Shown here in pieces: positions 6,349-42,915 of a stretch of DNA of 64,000 nucleotides. Location of the stretch: positions 744,001-808,000 of the forward strand of contig CAJIZS010000001.1 in the NCBI GenBank assembly GCA_905182075.1. The letters are read 5' to 3'. The translations under genes were made by a program, and so were the position numbers. The first letter of the stretch is position 1. Every line of letters starts with the position of its first letter. This DNA is from an uncultured Methylophilaceae bacterium. GTDB taxonomy: Bacteria > Pseudomonadota > Gammaproteobacteria > Burkholderiales > Methylophilaceae. The notes below the pieces were generated by a model that saw only the letters and a program-made list of their open reading frames with translations, was not told the DNA's origin and did not search any database.

Positions 6349-9300
6349 ATGCAAGAATCAGAAAAAAACGAATTCATACACTTGAGATGCCACAGTGAAT
6401 ACTCAATCACTGATGGAATTGTAAAAATTAAAGATTACGTTCAAAAAGCTTCAGAAGATCGTTCTCCATTAATTTCTTGATAATTTTCATGACCCTTTCC
6501 TGCTATCAGTAAAATATCTCCAGTCTCTGAAAATTTACAAGCAGTTTTAATGGCTTGTCTTCTATCTGATATGGTTATTGTTTTTTTTAAGTTCTCTGCT
6601 GAAACCCCTACTTCCATTTCTTCCAAAATAGTATCAGGGTTTTCTGTTCTTGGATTGTCTGAAGTAAAAACTGCTTGGCTGCTTGATGAATTCAACGAAG
6701 ATATTCTTGTTTTGTCTGGAGCGGTTAGGGGAGAAGTAGGGCAATATATTCTTCAAGATAAACTAGATCAGGCCGAGGAATCTTTGTTGAAATGGAAAGC
6801 CAGTTTTGGCGATCGATTTTATATAGAAGTTCAAAGACATGAAAAAGATAAACGTGAAATTGAGCAGGAAAGATACATTCAGCAAGCTTTATATTTCGCA
6901 GTTAATTATGACGTCCCTGTTGTTGCAACTCACCCAATTCAATATATGGGTGAAGATGATTTTATGGCGCACGAAGCAAAAACATGCATTGCTGATGGCT
7001 ATGTATTAGCTGATAAAAGAAGGCCCAAGCTTTTTTCTTCACAACAATATTTTAAAGATTCCAAGGAAATGCATGTTTTGTTCAACGATATACCTTCTGC
7101 ATTAAAAAATTCATTTTCTAAAATTAAAGTCCAAAATCAGTTAGGTGAAATTTATTTACCAGATTTTCCAGTCCCAGGCTCTTTAAAAATTGAAGACTTT
7201 TTACTTTCTGAAGCTCTATCTGGATTAAAAAAAAGGCTCGAGAGTTTGTATATAAATAAAGTAGATTACGACGAGCAATTTTCTAGGTACAACGAACGCT
7301 TAATTTTTGAAACAAATGTGATTAATCAAATGGGCTATGCTGGATATTTTTTGATTGTTGCCGATTTTATAAGTTGGTCAAAGAAAAATAAAATACCTGT
7401 CGGCCCAGGAAGGGGTTCCGGAGCCGGCTCTGTAGTTGCTTTTAGTTTAGGTATTACCGATCTTGACCCTTATGGCTTTACTTTTTGAAAGATTTTTAAA
7501 TCCTGATAGGGTTTCAATGCCTGATTTTGATATTGACTTTTGTCAAGAGGGACGCGATCGCGTAATTGATTATGTGAAAGAAAAATATGGGTCTAACTCA
7601 GTATCTCAAATAGCCACATTTGGTACTATGGCTGCTAAAGCTGCTATCAGAGACGTTGGTAGGGCCTTAGATCTCCCTTATCTTTTTGTAGACAGTATTG
7701 CAAAGCTTATTCCTCCTGATCTAGGAATAACATTAACAGAGGCAATTAAAAAAGAATCACAAATTAAAGAACAGAATTGCTAAAGAGGAGGAGGTCAAAG
7801 AGTTTTTGATCTTGCTCTTAAGTTAGAAGGGCTGTAAAGAAATGTGAGTATGCATGCTGGCGGAGTATTATTGCACCTAGCGAAGATATCTAAATTTTCT
7901 CCTATCTATTGTCAGCCGATGGTCGAAGGTATTGTCAGTCAATTTGATAAGGATGATGTTGAAGCTGCTTGGGTTGGTTAAATTTGATTTCCTTGGACTA
8001 AGAACACTAACCATTCTTTCAATGGCGTTCATGCAAACAATTCAGGAAAATAGAGAATTTATCAAGATAGATTTAGAAACTATTCCGCTTGCGATGCAGT
8101 TATACTTATGATATTACTGAGTCTCAAACACACAGCTGTTTTCCAACTCGAATCAAAGGGCATGAAGGATATGCTTAAGAAAGCAAAACCAGATTGTTTT
8201 GAGGATATTATTGCTTTAGTAGCTCTTTATAGGCCTGGCCCTATGGATCTAATCCCTGATTTTTGTGAAAGAAAGCACGGACAGCAAGCAGTAACATACC
8301 CACACCCATCGACAAAATCTATTTTGAAGGAGACTTATGGTATTGCTGTTTATCAGGAGCAAGTAATGCAAATTGCGCAAACTGTCGCTGGATATATCTT
8401 TAGGAAGTGCAGATATTTTAAGAAGAGCAATGGGTAAAAAGAAGGTTGAGGAAATGGATGCCCAAAGGAGCAAACTTTATCTGGTGCACATTAAAAATAA
8501 TCTTAATGAAAGGCAAGCTGGGGATTTATTTGACTTACTAGAAAAATTTGCTGGTTATGGGTTTAATAAATCACATGCTGCTGCATATGCTGTTATTGCA
8601 TATCAAACCGCTTATTTAAAAGCACATTATCCAGCAGAATATATGGCCGCATCTATGTCAGCAGATATGAATAATACCGATAATGTCCATTTGCTATTTG
8701 ATGATTGTGGACTAAACAAAATTGAGTTATTACCCCCCGATATTAATGAAAGTGAGTATAAGTTTTTATCTTTAAATTCGAGCCAGATTTTATTTGGACT
8801 TGGAGCAATCAAGGGTACCGGTCTTAGTGCTATTGAAATTATATTGGAAGAAAGGAATGAGAATGGTAATTTTATTTCTTTGTTTGATTTTACATGCAGA
8901 CTTAACTTAACAAAAGTAAACCGTAAGGCAATTGAATCTCTAATCCGTGCAGGTGCATTTGATAAGGTTGAGAAAAATAGATCTTCTTTATTAGCAAGTG
9001 TTGATTTAGCAATAAAAGTGGCAGATCAAGCAGATAAAAATAGTAAGCAAGAAGGCTTGTTTGGAGACTCTGAAAGTAAAGAGGTTAAGCTAGAAAAAAA
9101 AGATTTATGGGATGAGCGAACACAGTTTTCTCAGGAAAAGGTAGCGCTAGGTTTTTATTATAGCGGACATCCTTTTGGCCACTATCGAAAAATGATTAGG
9201 GAATTTATTCCAAATAACCTAAAAGCCCTTGTTCCTCGAGAATCATCTTGCCTGATTGCAGGCATTATTGCAGCTGTTAAATTTAAGCTTACAGCTAGAG

Positions 9301-29389: not shown

Positions 29390-30910
29390 TTATTCCCACT
29401 CAATAGTTGCTGGAGGTTTGCTTGAAATATCGTAAGTTACTCTATTTATTCCTTTAACTTCATTTATTATTCGATTTGAAACTCTCCCCAATAAGTCATA
29501 AGGGAGTTCTGCCCAGTTTGCCGTCATAAAGTCAGTTGTAGTTACTGCTCTCAGAGAAACTACATATTCATATGTTCTACCATCACCCATTACACCAACT
29601 GATTTAACTGGAAGAAATACAGTAAAAGCTTGTGAAGTTTTATCATACCAGCCACTTCTTTTTGAGTTCTTCAATAAATATAGCATCTGCATTTTGCAAT
29701 ATTAGCAAATTCTTCTTTAACTTCCCTAAAATTCTTACTCCTAGACCTGGCCCTGGAAAAGGGTGTCTAGTAAACCATTCTTTTTTAACCCTAAAGCAAT
29801 ACCTAACTCTCTAACCTCATCTTTAAATAATTCTCTTAATGGCTAATAGTCTAAGTTCATAGTGTCTGGAAGTCCTCCAACATTATGATGACTTTTAATG
29901 GTGGCGCTTGGTCAGTTTTACCACCAGCTGATTCAATGACATCTGGATAAATAGTGCCTTGAGCCAACCATTTTGCATTCGGTATTTTTTTTGCTTCTTC
30001 TTGGAAAACCTCAATAAAATCTTTACCTATAATTTTCCGTTTTTTTTCAGGGTCATGAATTCCCTCTAGATCAGTCATAAATTTCCTTCTTGCATTGATA
30101 TGAATAACCTTTACACCTAAGTTTTCTATTATAGGTTTTCATAACTATTTCTGCTTCATTCAGCCTAAGCAAACCATGATCAACAAAAATACAAGTTAAT
30201 TGTCCCTATTGCTCTATGAATAAGCATTGCAGCTACGGATGAATCACACCACCAGATAACCCTAAAATAAGCATCATCTTTCCCTACAGTTTCTTTATAT
30301 TTTTTACTGCAGTTTCAACATAATTAGGCATATTCCAGCTGCTTCGCTTTAGCACAATTTCAATTACAAATCTTTTGATAATGCTTGCCCTCTTTAGTAT
30401 GAGTAACTTCAGGGTGAAATTGAAAGCATATATAGTTTTGAATCTGCCATAAGCTGCATTTACAACTGAATCTGTGCTTGCAATAAGTTTTGAATCATTT
30501 GGGAGAGAAGTAATTGTATCTCCATGACTCATCCAAACTTGATTATCAATATTACCATATTCTTAAATAATTTACAGTTACTATCTATCAATGAAAGTTT
30601 GTGCTCTGCCATACTCTCGTGAATTAGAATTCACTTCAACTATTTCCACTTTAAACTCCTAATTGCAATTGACATTGTGCTCCATAACAAATACCTAGTA
30701 CAGGTATTTTTCCTAAAATACTTTCAAGATTAATGAAGGTGAGTCTTTTCTATACAGAATTTGGACCGCCTGAAAGAATAATTCCATTCGCTTTCAAAAT
30801 CATTAATTTTTTTGAAGTCAATATCCAAAGGAAAAATTTCACAATAAACACTTAAGCTCCCTTATTCGTCTTGCAATTAAGTTGAGTATATTGTGAGCCA
30901 AAATCAAGTA

Positions 30911-30926
<16 letters not shown>
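29390..30926 (-). CDS. guaA: GMP synthase, glutamine-hydrolysing (heavily frameshifted)
   Basis: Makes GMP from XMP and glutamine. [16 protein letters not shown] at 30926 opens the glutamine-amidotransferase domain; the C-terminal synthetase domain is clear in [35 protein letters not shown] and the final [16 protein letters not shown] at 29390. Between 29700 and 30880 at least eight frame changes are needed. Recombined length is about 510 residues. Downstream of and slightly overlapping guaB, as in many proteobacteria. The breakage of an essential gene points to sequence error. Confidence 0.88.
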
Positions 30927-32417
<1,491 letters not shown>

Positions 32418-32485
32418 ATTATTTTCCTTATCGCGCAAAAGGAAATTATACAGAAAAGTCAGTCTGAAATCGAGTTAAAAAAAAA

Positions 32486-32788
32486 TTAATTACCTTTTTT
32501 CATATCTTTACCCTCAGCAGCTCTCTTCCGCCTTATTTCTTTTGGGTCAGCAATCAGAGGACGGTAGATTTCAATCCGATCACGATCTCTAAGGACCTTA
32601 TCAAGTGTTGTAAGTTTTCCAAAAATTAATAACCGATTAGAATCTAAATCAATTTCTTCAAATTTTTTAAGGATTCCCGAAAGTTCAATTGCTTCTTTAA
32701 CAGAAATACCTTTAGGAACCAGAACGGGAATAATAATTTGTTTTTTTGGTAAAGCAAAAGAAACTTCAATCATTATTTTATCAGGCAT
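32486..32788 (-). CDS. rnfH: RnfH family ubiquitin-fold protein
   Basis: Small beta-grasp protein of about 100 residues. The ATG at 32788 (MPDKIMIEVSFALP) overlaps the ratA stop and is preferred to an in-frame ATG further upstream. EAIELSGILKKF, LLIFGKLTTLDKVLRDRDRIEIYRPL is the family core, with a basic tail after KEIRRKRA. Function unknown; consistently paired with ratA and smpB. Confidence 0.88.
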   Translation of the reverse strand: MPDKIMIEVSFALPKKQIIIPVLVPKGISVKEAIELSGILKKFEEIDLDSNRLLIFGKLTTLDKVLRDRDRIEIYRPLIADPKEIRRKRAAEGKDMKKGN

Positions 32789-33214
32789 CTGAATCCTTAT
32801 TTGCTTTAGCAACAAAATTATCTATAAATGTATTTGCAATCATATTAAAAACTGGTGATATGAGTTTATCTAAAATATAGTTACTAAATTCATATTGCAG
32901 TTCAAATTCTATTTTACAAGTATCTTTTTCAATTTCAATAAAATTCCATTCACCTTTTAATGTTTTAAATGGACCATCGATAAGATTAATATCCATCTTT
33001 GTAGGAAATATTTTAACATTTTCAGTTGTAAAAGATTGTTTAACATTGTGATAATTAATTAAAATTGTGGCTTTGGTTATTTTTTCAGTGCGTTCGATAA
33101 CTTTAGTCTTGCCACACCAGGGAAAAAATTGGGATAATCCTCAACTTGATCAACAAGGTTAAACATTTTCTCTCTACTGTGAAAAACTAAGGCATGTTTT
33201 TTGATAGTAATCAT
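32781..33214 (-). CDS. ratA: RatA / coenzyme Q-binding START-domain protein (one frameshift)
   Basis: START/polyketide cyclase-like protein of about 145 residues. ATG 33214 reads ITIKKHALVFHSREKMFNLV, DYPNFFPW, then a frame change near 33110 (and possibly a second near 33000) into FKTLKGEWNFIEIE and IANTFIDNFVAKA. Family members are called RatA (blocks 70S assembly in E. coli) or UbiX-partner CoQ-binding proteins; which applies here is unknown. Divergent from smpB with 56 bases between starts, the usual arrangement. Confidence 0.85.
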
Positions 33215-33270
33215 GGAATGATAAGATTATAGGTAGCGTACAATTATACTTTTAAATGACAAATAATTAA

Positions 33271-33723
33271 ATGAGCATTATCCAAAATAAAAAAGCCTTT
33301 CATGATTACTTTATTGAAGATAAGTATGAAGCAGGTATTGTTCTTGAAGGATGGGAAGTTAAAGCCATCAGGGATGGGCGTGCCAATATCAAAGAAGCCT
33401 ATGTCATTATTCAAAAAGGAGAGATTTTTCTTTTAGGTTGCCATATTACCCCTATGGGAATGCTTCTACCCATATTAATCCAGATAATATTCGAACTAGA
33501 AAACTACTTTTAAATAATGATGAGATTAGTAAAGTTAATTGGTAAAGTGGAAAGATCTGGCTTTACTTTAGTTCCTCTAGATATGCATTATAAGGGAGGC
33601 TATGTTAAAGTGCCAGATTGGCTTGCCAAAGGTAAGAAACAATATGATAAGAGAGCTACAGAAAAAGAAAAAGACTGGAATAGAGAGAAAAATCGTATCA
33701 GCGCAACAAACAAAGGAAAGTAG
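33271..33723 (+). CDS. smpB: SsrA-binding protein SmpB (one frameshift)
   Basis: SmpB brings tmRNA to stalled ribosomes. [40 protein letters not shown] form the OB core; a frame change near 33455-33500 precedes [18 protein letters not shown] and [19 protein letters not shown], with the charged tail DWNREKNR that occupies the empty mRNA channel. The gene ends 19 bases before ssrA, its RNA partner. Confidence 0.93.
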
Positions 33724-33742: not shown

Positions 33743-34097
33743 GGGGCTGACCAGGTTTCGACGTGGGTTACAAAGCAGAATAGTGCATACCGAGGCTTCT
33801 AGGTACCTCGTAAATAAACTAGAAAAAAAAGTAATCGCAAATGACGATAACTACGCTTTAGCTGCTTAATTCCAGCTAAACGCTGTCCCGATATGTCACT
33901 CGCTCGGGTTACAGCGTCATAAAGAGAGACTCGGAGATTATTGGGTTACTTAATAATTTCTTAAACTAAGGTAACTCGCTTTTATATTCGCTTGCTTGTT
34001 GGTGGAGTAGAAGTTAAACATAAACAACATAGCTATGTATGTAGACCTATCTGTAGAGGATTTGCGGACGGGGGTTCGATTCCCCCCAGCTCCACCA
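33743..34097 (+). ncRNA. ssrA: tmRNA (transfer-messenger RNA)
   Basis: The 5' end GGGGCTGACC pairs with the 3' end GGTTCGATTCC...CAGCTCCACCA to form the tRNA-like domain; the CCA is encoded. GGTTTCGACGTGGG after the 5' end is standard for tmRNA. The resume codon and tag reading frame at 33837-33869 encode ANDDNYALAA followed by TAA, one residue from the common ANDENYALAA tag. About 355 nt. The 3' end is the apparent integration point for the repeats and islands that follow to about 42.8 kb. Confidence 0.96.
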
Positions 34098-34100
34098 ATT
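34084..34100 (+). repeat. ssrA 3'-end repeat copy A (native att-like site)
   Basis: ccccagctccaccaatt, the last bases of tmRNA and three following bases. The same 17 bases recur at 36608-36624 and 41630-41646, and with two mismatches at 42820-42836, always in the same orientation. Confidence 0.8.
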
Positions 34101-34103
34101 ATT

Positions 34104-34187: not shown

Positions 34188-34225
34188 ATTTGCCCACTTA
34201 ATAGTCTGGGGGTAACCTGATTTTA
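34188..34225 (+). repeat. 38-bp inverted repeat, left copy
   Basis: About 36 of 38 bases match the reverse complement of 36435-36472. The shared core includes cccacttaat and gtctgggggtaa. The two copies bracket the iscU-erpA-LOG segment. Confidence 0.8.
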
Positions 34226-34277
34226 TAGAAAGCTATTGAATAATATAAATTATAGGAGTAGTTTGGTTATATGGGAG

Positions 34278-34469
34278 CTCGTTCCGGTGTTGCCTAGACG
34301 TCTCTCCATGAAAAGTCAAAAGTAATGGTTGTGGTTAATCAGGCACTGTGTGATTATTCTTACAGACGATATCATTCCTCCTTGTAAGAAATAAACCTAA
34401 TGTACCTTAGATCACTGCCGATATAAATCGTCCGAATGGACATGCTGCTCTAGGCAACACCAGAACGAA
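34278..34469 (+). ncRNA. Candidate structured RNA with long closing stem
   Basis: Arms at 34278-34298 and 34449-34469 are reverse complements at 19 of 21 positions (core ggtgttgcctaga), closing a 192-nt unit with no reading frame. Length and architecture (long closing stem, large internal region, TATA-like sequence just upstream at about 34246-34262) recall 6S RNA, but the central bubble was not recognised, so this is only a candidate. An imperfect palindromic mobile unit is the alternative. Confidence 0.35.
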
Positions 34470-34566
34470 TTTTAATAAAACCTTCTGAGTAAGAGGGAAT
34501 GAGGATGGTGTAGATCTAGAAAAAGTAGAATGGGCAGAACATTAAAATTTTTAGGAGAAATTTATT

Positions 34567-34959
34567 ATGGCTTATAGCGATAAAGTATTAGATCATTACG
34601 AGAACCCAAGGAATGTTGGCTCGTTTGATAAAGAAGACCCAACAGTTGGAACTGGTATGGTTGGTGCACCTGCTTGTGGTGATGTTATGAAGCTACAAAT
34701 TAAAGTAGGTGAAAATGGCATTATTGAAGATGCTAAATTTAAAACATATGGATGCGGCAGTGCTATTGCATCAAGTTCACTTGTTACAGAAATGCTTAAA
34801 GGTCGAACTCTGGATGAAGCACAAGCTATCAAGAACACTTCGATAGTTGAAGAATTAGCATTGCCTCCAGTTAAAATTCATTGTTCAGTTTTAGCAGAAG
34901 ATGCAATAAAAGCAGCGGTAGCTGACCTTAAATCTAAGAAAAATGTGTCGCTCAATTAA
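34567..34959 (+). CDS. iscU: Iron-sulfur cluster scaffold IscU
   Basis: Intact 130-residue scaffold on which 2Fe-2S clusters are built. AGGAGA lies about 8 bases before the ATG. The three ligand cysteines are in GAPACGDVMKL, TYGCGSAIASS and VKIHCSVLAEDA; LPPVK is the binding site for the HscA chaperone. The usual iscR and iscS upstream and hscBA downstream are absent; only erpA follows. It lies inside the inverted-repeat-bounded segment downstream of ssrA, an unexpected place for a housekeeping gene. Confidence 0.95.
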   Translation: MAYSDKVLDHYENPRNVGSFDKEDPTVGTGMVGAPACGDVMKLQIKVGENGIIEDAKFKTYGCGSAIASSSLVTEMLKGRTLDEAQAIKNTSIVEELALPPVKIHCSVLAEDAIKAAVADLKSKKNVSLN

Positions 34960-34985
34960 AAAATAAATGAAGAGGAAGAATAAAA

Positions 34986-35339
34986 ATGACGACAGCTGAA
35001 CTAGCAATGCCTACCCCGATTAACTTTACTGATAACGCAGTAAAAAAAGTTAAGGATTTGATTTTGGAAGAAGGTTCGCCTGACCTAAAGCTTAGAGTTT
35101 TTGTTAGTGGTGGTGGATGTTCTGGGTTTCAATATGGATTCACTTTTGAAGAGGCTGCTAACGAAGATGATACACAAGTTGTTAAAGATACGGTCACTCT
35201 TTTGGTAGATCCAATGAGCTTACAATACTTAACAGGTGCAGAAATTGATTATCAAGATAATGTTCAGGGCTCACAATTTGTAATTAAGAATCCTAGTGCA
35301 AAAAGCACTTGTGGCTGTGGCTCTTCTTTTTCAGCTTAG
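34986..35339 (+). CDS. erpA: A-type iron-sulfur carrier ErpA/IscA
   Basis: Intact 117-residue A-type carrier with the three cysteines in [13 protein letters not shown] and [11 protein letters not shown]. The long N-terminal lead ([18 protein letters not shown]) and end are like betaproteobacterial ErpA more than IscA. It would pass clusters from IscU to apo-proteins. Preceded by GAGGAAGAAT as ribosome binding site, 26 bases after iscU. Confidence 0.92.
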
Positions 35340-35807
35340 TTGTTTGGAATGCCTCTTCTAAATTTACTAATATCAACTTGTCTACGGTGACTTATTTTAG
35401 ACAAATCATCAGCTAGTATTTGGTTCAAATAAGCAACCCAACCAGCAGTGACTAAATTAAAAATCATAATATTAAATATTAAACCATCAAGAAGATTCCA
35501 TCAATTAGAAAGGCATTTGAGTACGCAGCCACATTCCAATGTATTTATTATTTAAATTATTGATATTATTGAATTAATCTTATTGTACACCTACCTTTTA
35601 TTACTTTTTCTCAAAAAAAGGTAATGATTCAATCTCATCATCATTAACTGGAATATCAAAATTATCTCTAAATGCTTTAATATTTTCTAAAGAATTATTG
35701 TGGTAATAGTCATTCACCCATGCACTTGCACTACTTATTATCAGACTTAGGTGCCTAGCTATCCATAATAAAAATATAATGAATGATGAATTCGAACCCA
35801 TTATCAA
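35336..35807 (-). CDS. Hypothetical membrane protein (broken)
   Basis: On the minus strand the start near 35801 gives [20 protein letters not shown], a hydrophobic N-terminus; further on, with frame changes near 35480-35500, come [12 protein letters not shown], a second hydrophobic stretch ([18 protein letters not shown] in corrected form) and the C-terminus [11 protein letters not shown] with TAA at 35336-35338, overlapping the erpA stop tail to tail. An AceE-like piece interrupts it. No family was recognised; about 130-150 residues and two or three membrane segments. Confidence 0.4.
35604..35696 (-). other. Pyruvate dehydrogenase E1 (AceE)-like fragment
   Basis: Thirty-one codons on the minus strand, [20 protein letters not shown] followed by IESLPFF, match the conserved segment after the active-site region of homodimeric PDH E1 (pattern FRDRF-IPV-D-IE-LPF). 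Nothing else of AceE is present; it interrupts a hypothetical membrane protein. Confidence 0.55.
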
Positions 35808-35867
35808 GGAAGTGTTGGAGACTTAATAGCTAGAATGATTTCTATTATTGGAGTTAGCACACCAGTA

Positions 35868-36436
35868 TAAATATTACCAAATGGGAGTTGAAGTTTCAAA
35901 GCTACTTGCTGAAGGTGGATATGGAGTAATTACTGGCGGTGGTCCTGGGATTATGGAAGCTGGAAATAAAGGTGCTCAAGAGGGGGGAGGTAAATCAGTT
36001 GGATTGAAATATTCATCTGCCTAATGAACAAGCCCCTAACCAATATCAGGACATGAGCTTTAATTTTCATTATTTTTTTACAAGAAAATTTTGGTTTACC
36101 TATCCCAAGGTTTCGTTGTAATGCCCGGAGGGTTTGGAACTTTAGATGAATTATTTGAAGTTTTAACATTGATGCAGACTGGAAAAATACAACAGTTTCC
36201 AATTATTTTGGTGGGTAAAAGAATTCTGGTCGGATTCGATGGAATGGATAGAAAAAGATTTATTAGCCAATAATATGATTAATACCAGTGACTTAAAATT
36301 AATCTCACTAGTTGATAGCGAAGATGAGATTAATCAATGTGTAGAAGAGTTTTATGCTGGTAATAAACATTATTATTGTTTAGAAGAACGCGATAATCTT
36401 TTATTAAGCAGGCCCTGTGCCAAGCCTGATAAATAA
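35868..36436 (+). CDS. LOG family protein (TIGR00730), 5' end lost and frameshifted
   Basis: Lysine-decarboxylase-like fold of the LOG family, nucleoside-5'-monophosphate phosphoribohydrolases. Clear from YYQMGVEVSKLLAEGGYGVI, with ITGGGPGIMEAGNKGA as the first signature and VVMPGGFGTLDELFEVLT (PGGxGTxxE) as the second. Frame changes near 36005, 36110 and 36215. The first 60-80 residues expected (including SIFGSAR) cannot be read; a possible start at 35779 runs into a stop. Ends just before the right inverted repeat. Confidence 0.8.
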
Positions 36437-36472
36437 AAATCAGTTTACCCCCAGACAATTAAGTGGGCAAAT
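36435..36472 (-). repeat. 38-bp inverted repeat, right copy
   Basis: Reverse-complement partner of 34188-34225 with two mismatches. It starts at the end of the LOG gene and is followed at 36504 by the 121-bp direct repeat. Confidence 0.8.
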
Positions 36473-36503
36473 TCATGGTCCTATGCCACTTGACATGAGA
36501 CTG

Positions 36504-36624
36504 TAATACACAACAATGACTACTATGGACTACGTAAGATTATGAGTAGGGCAATTCCATTGGCTTAATACACAACTATGGAGGACTATACAGTCGAAAT
36601 TGGTGCTCCCCAGCTCCACCAATT
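36504..36624 (+). repeat. 121-bp direct repeat, copy 1, ending in ssrA-end copy B
   Basis: Matches 41526-41646 with about 5 differences over 121 bases and ends exactly in the ssrA 3'-end sequence (36608-36624). No reading frame. The last 40 bases weakly resemble the T-arm/acceptor part of tmRNA. Together with 36625-36851 this is a gene-free stretch of about 415 bases; the remainder holds a hairpin with T-rich flank near 36637-36666 and AT-rich promoter-like sequence before the fasciclin gene. Confidence 0.85.
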
Positions 36625-36851
36625 AAATAAGGCTAACCCCTGTAAATAGAGGGTTTCAGGCTTATCTTTTATTACTACTCCTACTCTTAATCGCCTAGTC
36701 TGGCGATGGGGAAGAGATTGAGTCAAGAATATAATGAACTTTAGAAGTTTACTTCTCTCATAATATTACTTTTAGTATTTAACAATATGTTAAATATTTT
36801 TTGTGAAACAGTTAACCTCACTAACAGCACTCCAACTTAAAGGATTCAAAT

Positions 36852-37758: not shown

Positions 37759-38148
37759 TTAAGACTTTGATTTCTTCATTAGATAGATGCTTAGACATAA
37801 AAATAAAGAAACAATGACCTCAATAGCTATTGCCTTAATTAGGAAGTCTGCTCCATGAACTAACCCTGCATAAATTCTAAAAATTGCAGCAGAGCCTAAT
37901 AAGCTTAATGTTGTATAGAGCCAAACATGCTGATTTCTATATGCACCGATGCAAGCCATCAATCCTGCGGTAAAAAAGAAGGCAGTAAAATCTCCTATTT
38001 GTGTGTTCATGCCCATAGTCGTATCTCCAGGTCCTTCAACTAATGTCATGGCTAAACCCGCTGCGGCAGTTTCAGGATCTAAAATCCATCGAAATGCTGA
38101 GCTAAGTAAAACTAAACCAATTGACGCTGATATAAATCTTGCAATCAT
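37759..38148 (-). CDS. Small four-helix membrane protein (DUF4345/DoxX-like)
   Basis: 129 residues with about four hydrophobic segments and RFISASIGLVLLSSAFRWIL, TMGMNTQIGDFTAFFFTAGL, AAIFRIYAGLVHGADF. AGGAGAATATT precedes the ATG. The pattern resembles DUF4345-type membrane proteins; function unknown. Last gene of the minus-strand metal-uptake cluster. Its last 43 bases (37763-37805) are repeated at 41782-41824. Confidence 0.6.
   Translation of the reverse strand: MIARFISASIGLVLLSSAFRWILDPETAAAGLAMTLVEGPGDTTMGMNTQIGDFTAFFFTAGLMACIGAYRNQHVWLYTTLSLLGSAAIFRIYAGLVHGADFLIKAIAIEVIVSLFLCLSIYLMKKSKS
37763..37805 (+). repeat. 43-bp direct repeat, copy 1
   Basis: The final codons of the DUF4345-like gene (gactttgatttcttcatt...) recur without mismatch at 41782-41824, beyond ssrA-end copy C. 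Confidence 0.85.
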
Positions 38149-41142: not shown

Positions 41143-41234
41143 AAAAACTCCAATTAAAAAGTAATTTAAAAAAAATAAAACTTTTATTACAAAGAGTTTT
41201 TTATGGTGCGTTGGATTGGAAGGCGACAAAAAAA

Positions 41235-41296
41235 TATCAATCAATATCAATCAATATCAATCAATATCAATCAATCAATATCAATATCAATATCAA
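41235..41296 (+). repeat. Short tandem repeat upstream of the zinc receptor
   Basis: Four units of tatcaatcaa followed by tcaa and three units of tatcaa, 93 bases upstream of the receptor start, between it and the His-rich peptide gene. Slipped-strand change in unit number could alter promoter spacing. Confidence 0.9.
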
Positions 41297-41449: not shown

Positions 41450-41525
41450 TTCGCAACTATAAAAGAAACTACAAAATAAGACAACTCTTACTTTGCAAAT
41501 TTATGTACTATTTTGCACGAGATTT

Positions 41526-41646
41526 TAATATACAACAATGACTACTATGGACTACGTAAGATTATGAGTAGGGCGATTCTATTGGCTTAATACACAACTA
41601 TGGAGGACTATACAGACGAAATTGATGCTCCCCAGCTCCACCAATT
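41526..41646 (+). repeat. 121-bp direct repeat, copy 2, ending in ssrA-end copy C
   Basis: Second copy of 36504-36624, about 5 differences, same orientation, again ending in the ssrA 3' sequence (41630-41646) and followed here by a copy of the ssrA terminator (41656-41682). The gene-free stretch 41450-41971 holds this repeat, the terminator copy and the second 43-bp repeat. Confidence 0.85.
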
Positions 41647-41655
41647 ATTAAAAAT

Positions 41656-41682: not shown

Positions 41683-41781
41683 ACATCTGCTATCGGTTAA
41701 CACCCAACTTATATTACACTTAAATATAAAAAGCGCATTTATAAATGTAGGGTAATAAACTCAGTTTAACCCCTAAACTAG

Positions 41782-41824
41782 GACTTTGATTTCTTCATTA
41801 GATAGATGCTTAGACATAAAAATA
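41782..41824 (+). repeat. 43-bp direct repeat, copy 2
   Basis: Identical to 37763-37805, the 3' end of the DUF4345-like gene; here without the rest of that gene. Confidence 0.85.
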
Positions 41825-42710: not shown

Positions 42711-42819
42711 ACAAAAAAACTTCCTTTAAATATTTTAACTTTATTAATCATATTTTAAATAATTTTCAAATCTAATTAATTATATATTTATTTTTAATAA
42801 ATAAATTACGAATACTGCT

Positions 42820-42836
42820 CCCCACCTGCACCAATT
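42820..42836 (+). repeat. ssrA 3'-end repeat copy D (degenerate)
   Basis: ccccacctgcaccaatt matches the ssrA end except two bases, and is preceded by tgct as in copies B and C. It is followed by actaacccttgattaatta, a remnant of the ssrA terminator. Confidence 0.6.
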
Positions 42837-42915
42837 AAAATAGACTAACCCTTGATTAATTAAACATTATCGAGAGCATTCATATGAGGAAGTAAATTTG
42901 AGTCTTGAAAAATAA

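Follow-up and report, generated by a model that had tools for sequence, protein, structure and literature searches.

Background

Islands that integrate through tyrosine recombinases, and tycheposons, are found at tRNA and tmRNA genes and carry direct repeats of the 3′ end of the RNA gene. Mobile promoters, the products of promoter propagation in prokaryotes, place almost identical sequences upstream of genes that are unrelated, and 6S RNA, which regulates transcription globally, binds the sigma70 RNA polymerase and serves as a template for pRNA. The closest described islands are the flexible islands of OM43 and Ca. Methylopumilus, which have a variable region with a tmRNA gene in its middle, as here, together with another island type marked by recurrence of the final 20 nt of a tRNA gene (tRNA-Lys); no bona fide integrons are reported for their small insertions, and the accessible parts of the paper describe no tmRNA-end repeats, dispersed promoter-like element or island 6S RNA (PMC10872708). 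In beta-proteobacteria, the order ZapA-ssrS-EVE is given as the 6S RNA locus (PMC7641849, in its accessible parts), and among the matches listed from the open-licence literature, as far as those texts are accessible, none reported a 6S RNA carried by a mobile island.

Here we describe a locus from a window of 64,000 nucleotides, the whole stretch of DNA that was analysed, in which two inverted arms enclose an iscU-erpA pair and a LOG-family gene. Our reading, to which we give a probability of about 70%, is that this is an island behind ssrA, with promoter-like modules as its arms and a 6S RNA homologue, Fe-S genes and a LOG gene as its cargo. The repeats of the RNA-gene 3′ end are shared with tyrosine-recombinase islands, and a relative's 6S copy (G009:C28) precedes an Arm-DNA-bind_3 integrase, whereas no integrase was recognised among the ORFs of the 2.5-kb unit in the window. 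As with mobile promoters, a near-identical upstream sequence stands before unrelated genes, but the element differs from them in being of minimal length, in having a fixed start codon and in being confined to the variable regions of a single genus. The island RNA is homologous over its full length to the housekeeping 6S RNA (SsrS) and has the same paired architecture as the zapA-linked RNA of the genus, although it is only about 55% identical and, in the 4 of 31 genomes that have it, lies in differing contexts away from zapA. This presumably mobile 6S RNA homologue is a more interesting object than the inverted repeat whose arms enclose it.

A probable island directly behind ssrA

The boundaries of the island and of the units that follow it are these:
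33743-34097, + strand: ssrA (tmRNA) gene, with the island directly behind it (ARAGORN; Rfam RF00023, E 9.2e-92)
34084-34101, + strand: tmRNA 3′ end, left boundary repeat (att-like), an 18-bp exact direct repeat with 36608-36625
36494-36625, + strand: right-end block of the island, with the terminal tmRNA 3′ end at 36608-36625 (94% over 132 bp with 41516-41647; 18-bp repeat)
41516-41647, + strand: second copy of the right-end block, with the tmRNA 3′ end at 41630-41647, end of a second tandem unit (94% over 132 bp)
42816-42851, + strand: weaker third copy, end of a possible third unit (86% over 36 nt)

The window unit thus has a direct repeat of the RNA-gene 3′ end at both of its ends, as an island does. 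Because the tmRNA 3′ end recurs at 36608-36625 and 41630-41647, with the weaker copy at 42816-42851, the island is the first of two, probably three, tandem units behind ssrA with copies of the tmRNA 3′ end between them. Integrase-family matches were found at two loci only in the own genome, one of which adjoins dapF- and zapA-like genes, the usual setting of xerC; integration of the island, whose movement is presumed, would depend on a tyrosine recombinase supplied from elsewhere. At least one further tmRNA-end copy was present downstream of ssrA in 8 of 20 loci, the window included, and 12 had none in the stretch examined, several of these being short or ending at contig ends, with varying flanks. 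The tmRNA-end islands agree with the tmRNA-centred variable region and the recurring tRNA-Lys-end island type in the accessible parts of the published description (PMC10872708).

The arms of the inverted repeat

The arms were located by a repeat search of the window and interpreted by comparison of copies:
34188-34224, + strand: arm 1, a decayed promoter-like element (TAACCT for TAAACT, ATA for ATG)
36436-36472, − strand: arm 2, the same promoter-like element with intact hexamers and without ATG, running leftward into the 3′ end of the LOG gene

The two arms are 37 nt long, 95% complementary (35/37) and 2211 nt apart, and arm 1 starts after 90 bp from the ssrA end. The sequence-only reading had proposed a 38-bp inverted repeat matching at about 36 of 38 positions; the repeat is real, but position 38 (34225/36435) is unpaired. 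That reading had passed over the tmRNA gene ahead of arm 1, the 18-bp direct repeat of its 3′ end that brackets the segment, and the structured RNA at 34272-34475. That it stands above chance follows from three further genome copies of the element and from the reversed-pattern control, which gave 0 matches in 61 genomes. The same reading considered that the arms could be the ends of a mobile unit. The segment does lie inside the ssrA island, but the boundary repeats are the copies of the tmRNA 3′ end, and the arms belong to a dispersed promoter-like family. By these comparisons, they are two copies of a dispersed, genus-specific promoter-like element at the ends of an ssrA island and not an inversion device, and both, having lost the start codon, are probably remnants of the promoter-like module.

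The position of the element at other island ends points the same way. At left ends, it begins 92, 127 and 126 nt past the tmRNA end (window, G005 and G004:C13), and at right ends the element is turned inward and is 137-162 nt away from the tmRNA end (window, G004:C26, G002:C12 and G002:C26); in G026:C22, an inward element lies beside the same end block, in which no complete tmRNA end was recognised. At several ssrA islands, modules are thus placed a short way inside an end and are directed inward, and two modules facing inward from the island ends account for an inverted repeat without any inversion mechanism. That the arms flip the 2.2-kb segment, or are the terminal repeats of a transposon, would suit a segment enclosed by two nearly perfect inverted arms, yet we regard this as very improbable. 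G004, the sole relative with both arms, carries the segment in the same orientation, none of the ORFs between the arms could be recognised as a transposase or invertase, and the arms' outer flanks, inspected by eye, revealed no matching direct repeat, so that an internal transposase and a target-site duplication, the marks of a transposon, are both missing. Furthermore, the element elsewhere stands singly and in direct orientation, and among all collected neighbours less than 8 kb apart, the only distance counted (L131 being omitted as a repeat of L137), 11 of 14 pairs, in the window and elsewhere, point in the same direction. An assembly join, which had also been raised, is unlikely because the same order of parts appears in independent assemblies: arm 1-RNA-LOG-arm 2 in G004, RNA-iscU-erpA in G009, and iscU-erpA beside an island end in G018.

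A dispersed promoter-like element of one genus

The own genome holds five copies of the element, both arms included; the others (C1:977572, 979034 and 979653) all have one orientation, and the gene beside this 977-979 kb cluster is present in 3 of 31 genus genomes. The element was found in 12/31 genomes of the genus and in 0/30 others. When followed by ATG, it was found in 8 of 150 family genomes, all belonging to this genus (which makes up 23 of the 150), and in none of the 127 genomes of other genera. A degenerate pattern of the element matched 17 stretches in named genomes: ten carry the title Methylophilaceae, two Methylophilales, four Nitrosomonadales and one Flavobacteriales. This last, the 4.4-kb contig L120, carries the element with a signal-peptide gene of the same type and is probably misbinned Methylophilaceae DNA. 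The window presumably comes from a marine methylotroph of the OM43 type. Both the element family and the repeated tmRNA ends are shown by comparison.

To describe the element, 43 matches with at most 7 mismatches were collected, or 41 without near-duplicates, 40 of which entered the column table. They came from 39 loci and the window, mostly chosen for containing the element, so that per-genome frequencies rest only on the 12/31 and 8/150 surveys. The element is conserved over its whole length. An ATG lies exactly 6 nt past TAAACT in 28 of the 41 copies, the next commonest ATG offset being found in 5/41, and the proteins downstream are mostly unrelated, many of them starting with a MKKLLLLLFLIPNLVMA-like signal sequence. 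The pattern TTGCCC-N17-TAAACT (positions 2-7 and 25-30), whose hexamers had been chosen from the consensus before the constraint test, shows the fewest changes of any hexamer pair, sharing the lowest place among 190 such pairs. Changed letters amount to 19/492 in the hexamers and 61/697 in the spacer (Fisher 9e-4, P values being too favourable because the element copies are related). In the copies with ATG, these values are 8/336 and 38/476, and in those without it, both window arms included, 11/156 and 23/221 (P 0.28, not significant).

Two constrained hexamers at 17-bp spacing, with the start codon always the same few nucleotides away in most copies, are what a leaderless sigma70 promoter would present, and they suggest that the element is a promoter yielding a leaderless or nearly leaderless mRNA: in most copies, transcription would begin at or next to the ATG of the cargo gene. 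A GGGGG 12 nt upstream of the ATG could have a role in translation start. The agreement with the sigma70 consensus is 8/12, short of a good match, and promoter scans do not report the element. The promoter reading is also weakened by the conservation of the whole element, by arm 2, which faces the end of the LOG gene without a start codon, and by the junctions found at the element, which would fit a recombination site too.

This alternative, in which the 37-bp element is a cassette-like recombination site for the exchange of gene modules and its place before the ATG a by-product, draws on several observations. Three pairs of copies match downstream only (92% over 396 nt, 92% over 185 nt and 98% over 255 nt), other sets of copies match in the upstream flank and not directly downstream, the left flank in G028 is that of G005 with the divergence falling within the element, and direct orientation prevails in 11/14 neighbouring pairs. 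We nevertheless consider it unlikely, because the letters under constraint are those of the promoter hexamers and not of a dyad (0.065 changed in palindrome arms vs 0.078 in the centre), and because the ATG distance is fixed in 28/41 copies. In addition, half-element matches are few, five among the matches listed from 1.1 Mb of loci and not all of them informative, and homologous recombination between repeats would give the same junctions. The junctions fit exchange at the element, whether site-specific or by homology, and the promoter-like module remains our preferred reading of the element.

Other candidates were set aside. A dyad operator or palindromic recombination core was rejected, arms and centre being equally changed. 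A phage or plasmid origin was likewise rejected, as the 30-mer pattern of the element and the island-RNA pattern had 0 exact matches in IMG/VR and blastn of the RNA was empty in phage and plasmid collections.

Several recurrent sequences were seen around the element. The MKKLLLLLFLIPNLVMA-like signal-peptide stretch is near-identical in DNA before different mature proteins (L053 of G005:C2, 6664-17303; L006, 7609 and near 7980) and sometimes occurs without the promoter-like element, which may reflect shuffling of secretion leaders. A second recurrent flank, GTTTGGTTTTTCAACTCAACCCAACA-like, lies directly before the element in front of unrelated genes (L050 3659, L054 7522, L066 5331, L057 3245 and L051 1057). 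In several islands, short tandem GTGGTACAC-like repeats stand between the tmRNA end and the element, at right ends (among them L062 5435-5490 and L049 6806-6860) and at a left end (L052); by resemblance, they could be arm-type sites of the integrase.

A diverged 6S RNA homologue on the island

Just inside arm 1, two further features were distinguished:
34236-34264, + strand: possible promoter of the 6S-like RNA (TTGAAT, 17 nt, TAGTTT), proposed by eye from a conserved upstream block in the alignment
34272-34475, + strand: 6S RNA (ssrS) homologue on the island (folding, blastn, covariance model, profile and covariation)

The stretch 34226-34490 folds more stably than its shuffles by 4.1 sd. By blastn, five copies of the island RNA are present in 4 of 31 genomes, none of them at the zapA locus: they precede iscU (window and G009:C59), LOG (G004), the Arm-DNA-bind_3 integrase (G009:C28) and an element-led gene for a secreted protein (G029). 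A covariance model of these five found one further full-length place in 30/31 genomes (C1:256470-256677 in the own genome), and each of the 30 immediately follows an ORF with a C-terminus that was read as ZapA; for G001, Pfam identifies ZapA as such and an EVE protein downstream. Apart from the island copies, 6S RNA in the genus appears as a single copy behind zapA (30/31 genomes).

With matches up to E 5 admitted, Rfam returned no 6S match for the island RNA, and RF00013 was found full length at 3 of 8 zapA-linked loci with 22-25 bits (gathering score 46.4); as the housekeeping gene is missed by the model too, we took this score as a threshold and not as a defining feature. The covariance model scores the reverse strand as well (56 bits for the window), and since a long hairpin scores on either strand, homology was tested by sequence alone. 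All 12 alignments of island with housekeeping RNAs scored 6.8 to 18 sd above the mean of 300 shuffles, and a profile built from the 30 housekeeping RNAs recovered each of the five island RNAs at full length (E 3.7e-16 to 2.2e-8 in the five-sequence set). Mean identity is 55% between island and housekeeping RNAs, 83% among housekeeping RNAs and 87% among island copies.

The structure was assessed in an alignment (A4) of 31 of the 35 RNA places, four housekeeping rows close to others being omitted (L213, L223, L224 and L227). Double changes occurred in 27 of 50 pairs, and 97.2% of cells were paired, compared with 34.5-50.4% for slid structures. Between the island and housekeeping majorities, 13 of the 50 pairs had both sides changed with pairing kept, and a few of these also vary within the housekeeping set. 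Island RNA cells are paired in 227/250 cases, and the window copy in 45 of 50 pairs. Covariation supports a closing stem, a large central bubble and a terminal stem, which is the 6S architecture.

The RNA-like stretch might instead be a MITE-like hairpin or decaying DNA and no working 6S RNA, as its long terminal inverted repeat, its five scattered copies and the reverse-strand score of the covariance model would suggest. We find this improbable, since the similarity to the zapA-linked RNA extends over the full length in sequence alone, the internal helices are maintained by double changes, and the lengths are similar (201-205 nt on islands vs 204-208 nt for housekeeping RNAs). Given this homology and the double changes that keep pairing, 34272-34475 is, on comparative evidence, a diverged 6S RNA homologue under structural constraint, off its usual locus. 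By homology, such an RNA would bind the sigma70 RNA polymerase of the host and alter transcription in the recipient.

Fe-S and LOG cargo in other combinations

Three protein-coding genes follow the RNA:
34567-34959, + strand: iscU, extra copy, 130 aa (Pfam NifU_N, E 2.9e-52; second copy at C1:692615)
34986-35339, + strand: erpA, extra copy, 117 aa (Pfam Fe-S_biosyn, E 1.1e-19; another at C1:292163, 92%)
35779-36433, + strand: LOG-family gene, divided between two frames in the present assembly (tblastn, the query being the intact protein of G004)

The naming of iscU-erpA and a LOG gene from sequence alone was borne out, Pfam confirming the first two and the LOG gene being present though split; it looks broken in the window, and in G004 it is intact (226 aa, Pfam Lysine_decarbox/SLOG). 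The remark that the isc neighbours are missing here was also correct, and the search it called for found a complete isc operon, iscU included, at about 690-696 kb (iscR, iscS, iscU, iscA, hscB, hscA and fdx, the ORFs being read by eye). Because of this operon and the other ErpA at C1:292163, the iscU-erpA pair is extra cargo, and comparison of relatives indicates that its status is variable.

G004, G009 and G018 contain the same parts in other combinations. The order in G004:C26 is element (+), RNA, LOG, element (−), tmRNA end, TonB-type receptor, tmRNA end, methyltransferase and tmRNA end (receptor and methyltransferase named by eye), with no counterpart of the iscU-erpA stretch (window 34473-35717), which was either inserted here or lost in G004. 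In G018:C3, an island right end comes after iscU-erpA (96% over 736 nt), with a tmRNA end and then a gene for a carbamoyltransferase behind it, and in G009:C59, a gene read as ilvD is followed by the RNA, iscU and erpA (86% over 1.1 kb).

Possible meaning of a presumably mobile 6S RNA homologue

Promoter activity, a leaderless start and RNA polymerase binding are what we infer for these parts. From them we advance, tentatively and with more doubt than confidence, a wider hypothesis: mobile islands of marine methylotrophs may carry their own 6S RNA as transferable Fe-S-linked cargo and may distribute a leaderless promoter module, peculiar to the genus, where cargo genes are exchanged, the RNA retuning host transcription in the island's favour. 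If this were true, mobile DNA could arrive with a regulator of the main RNA polymerase of its host, and the promoter-like module would allow unrelated cargo genes to be expressed as soon as they enter a very small genome.

Assembly and neighbouring DNA

The own genome assembly comprises 1.1 Mb in 2 contigs and is 47% complete. At window positions 29393-33723, the reading frames of guaA, guaB and ratA are each broken into several pieces in comparison with intact relatives, and smpB is present as two ORFs. The assembly looks error-prone or degraded, through sequencing errors or decay, and broken genes in the window therefore need cautious reading.

Some observations concern the surrounding regions. 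Behind ssrA in G005, a C5 cytosine DNA methylase (Pfam; L053 10549-11766) and a protein that is GIY-YIG-like by eye (7729-8445) were noted as possible defence cargo. Just past the second tmRNA-end copy of the window, a 70-bp stretch (41755-41824) has its match in G005 and G026, in sequence covering the 3′ end of a gene that is DoxX-like by eye; the corresponding gene of the window lies at 37759-38148. An ATCAAT-type microsatellite at 41233-41295, just 5′ of a TonB-type receptor gene, may be a length-variable tract.
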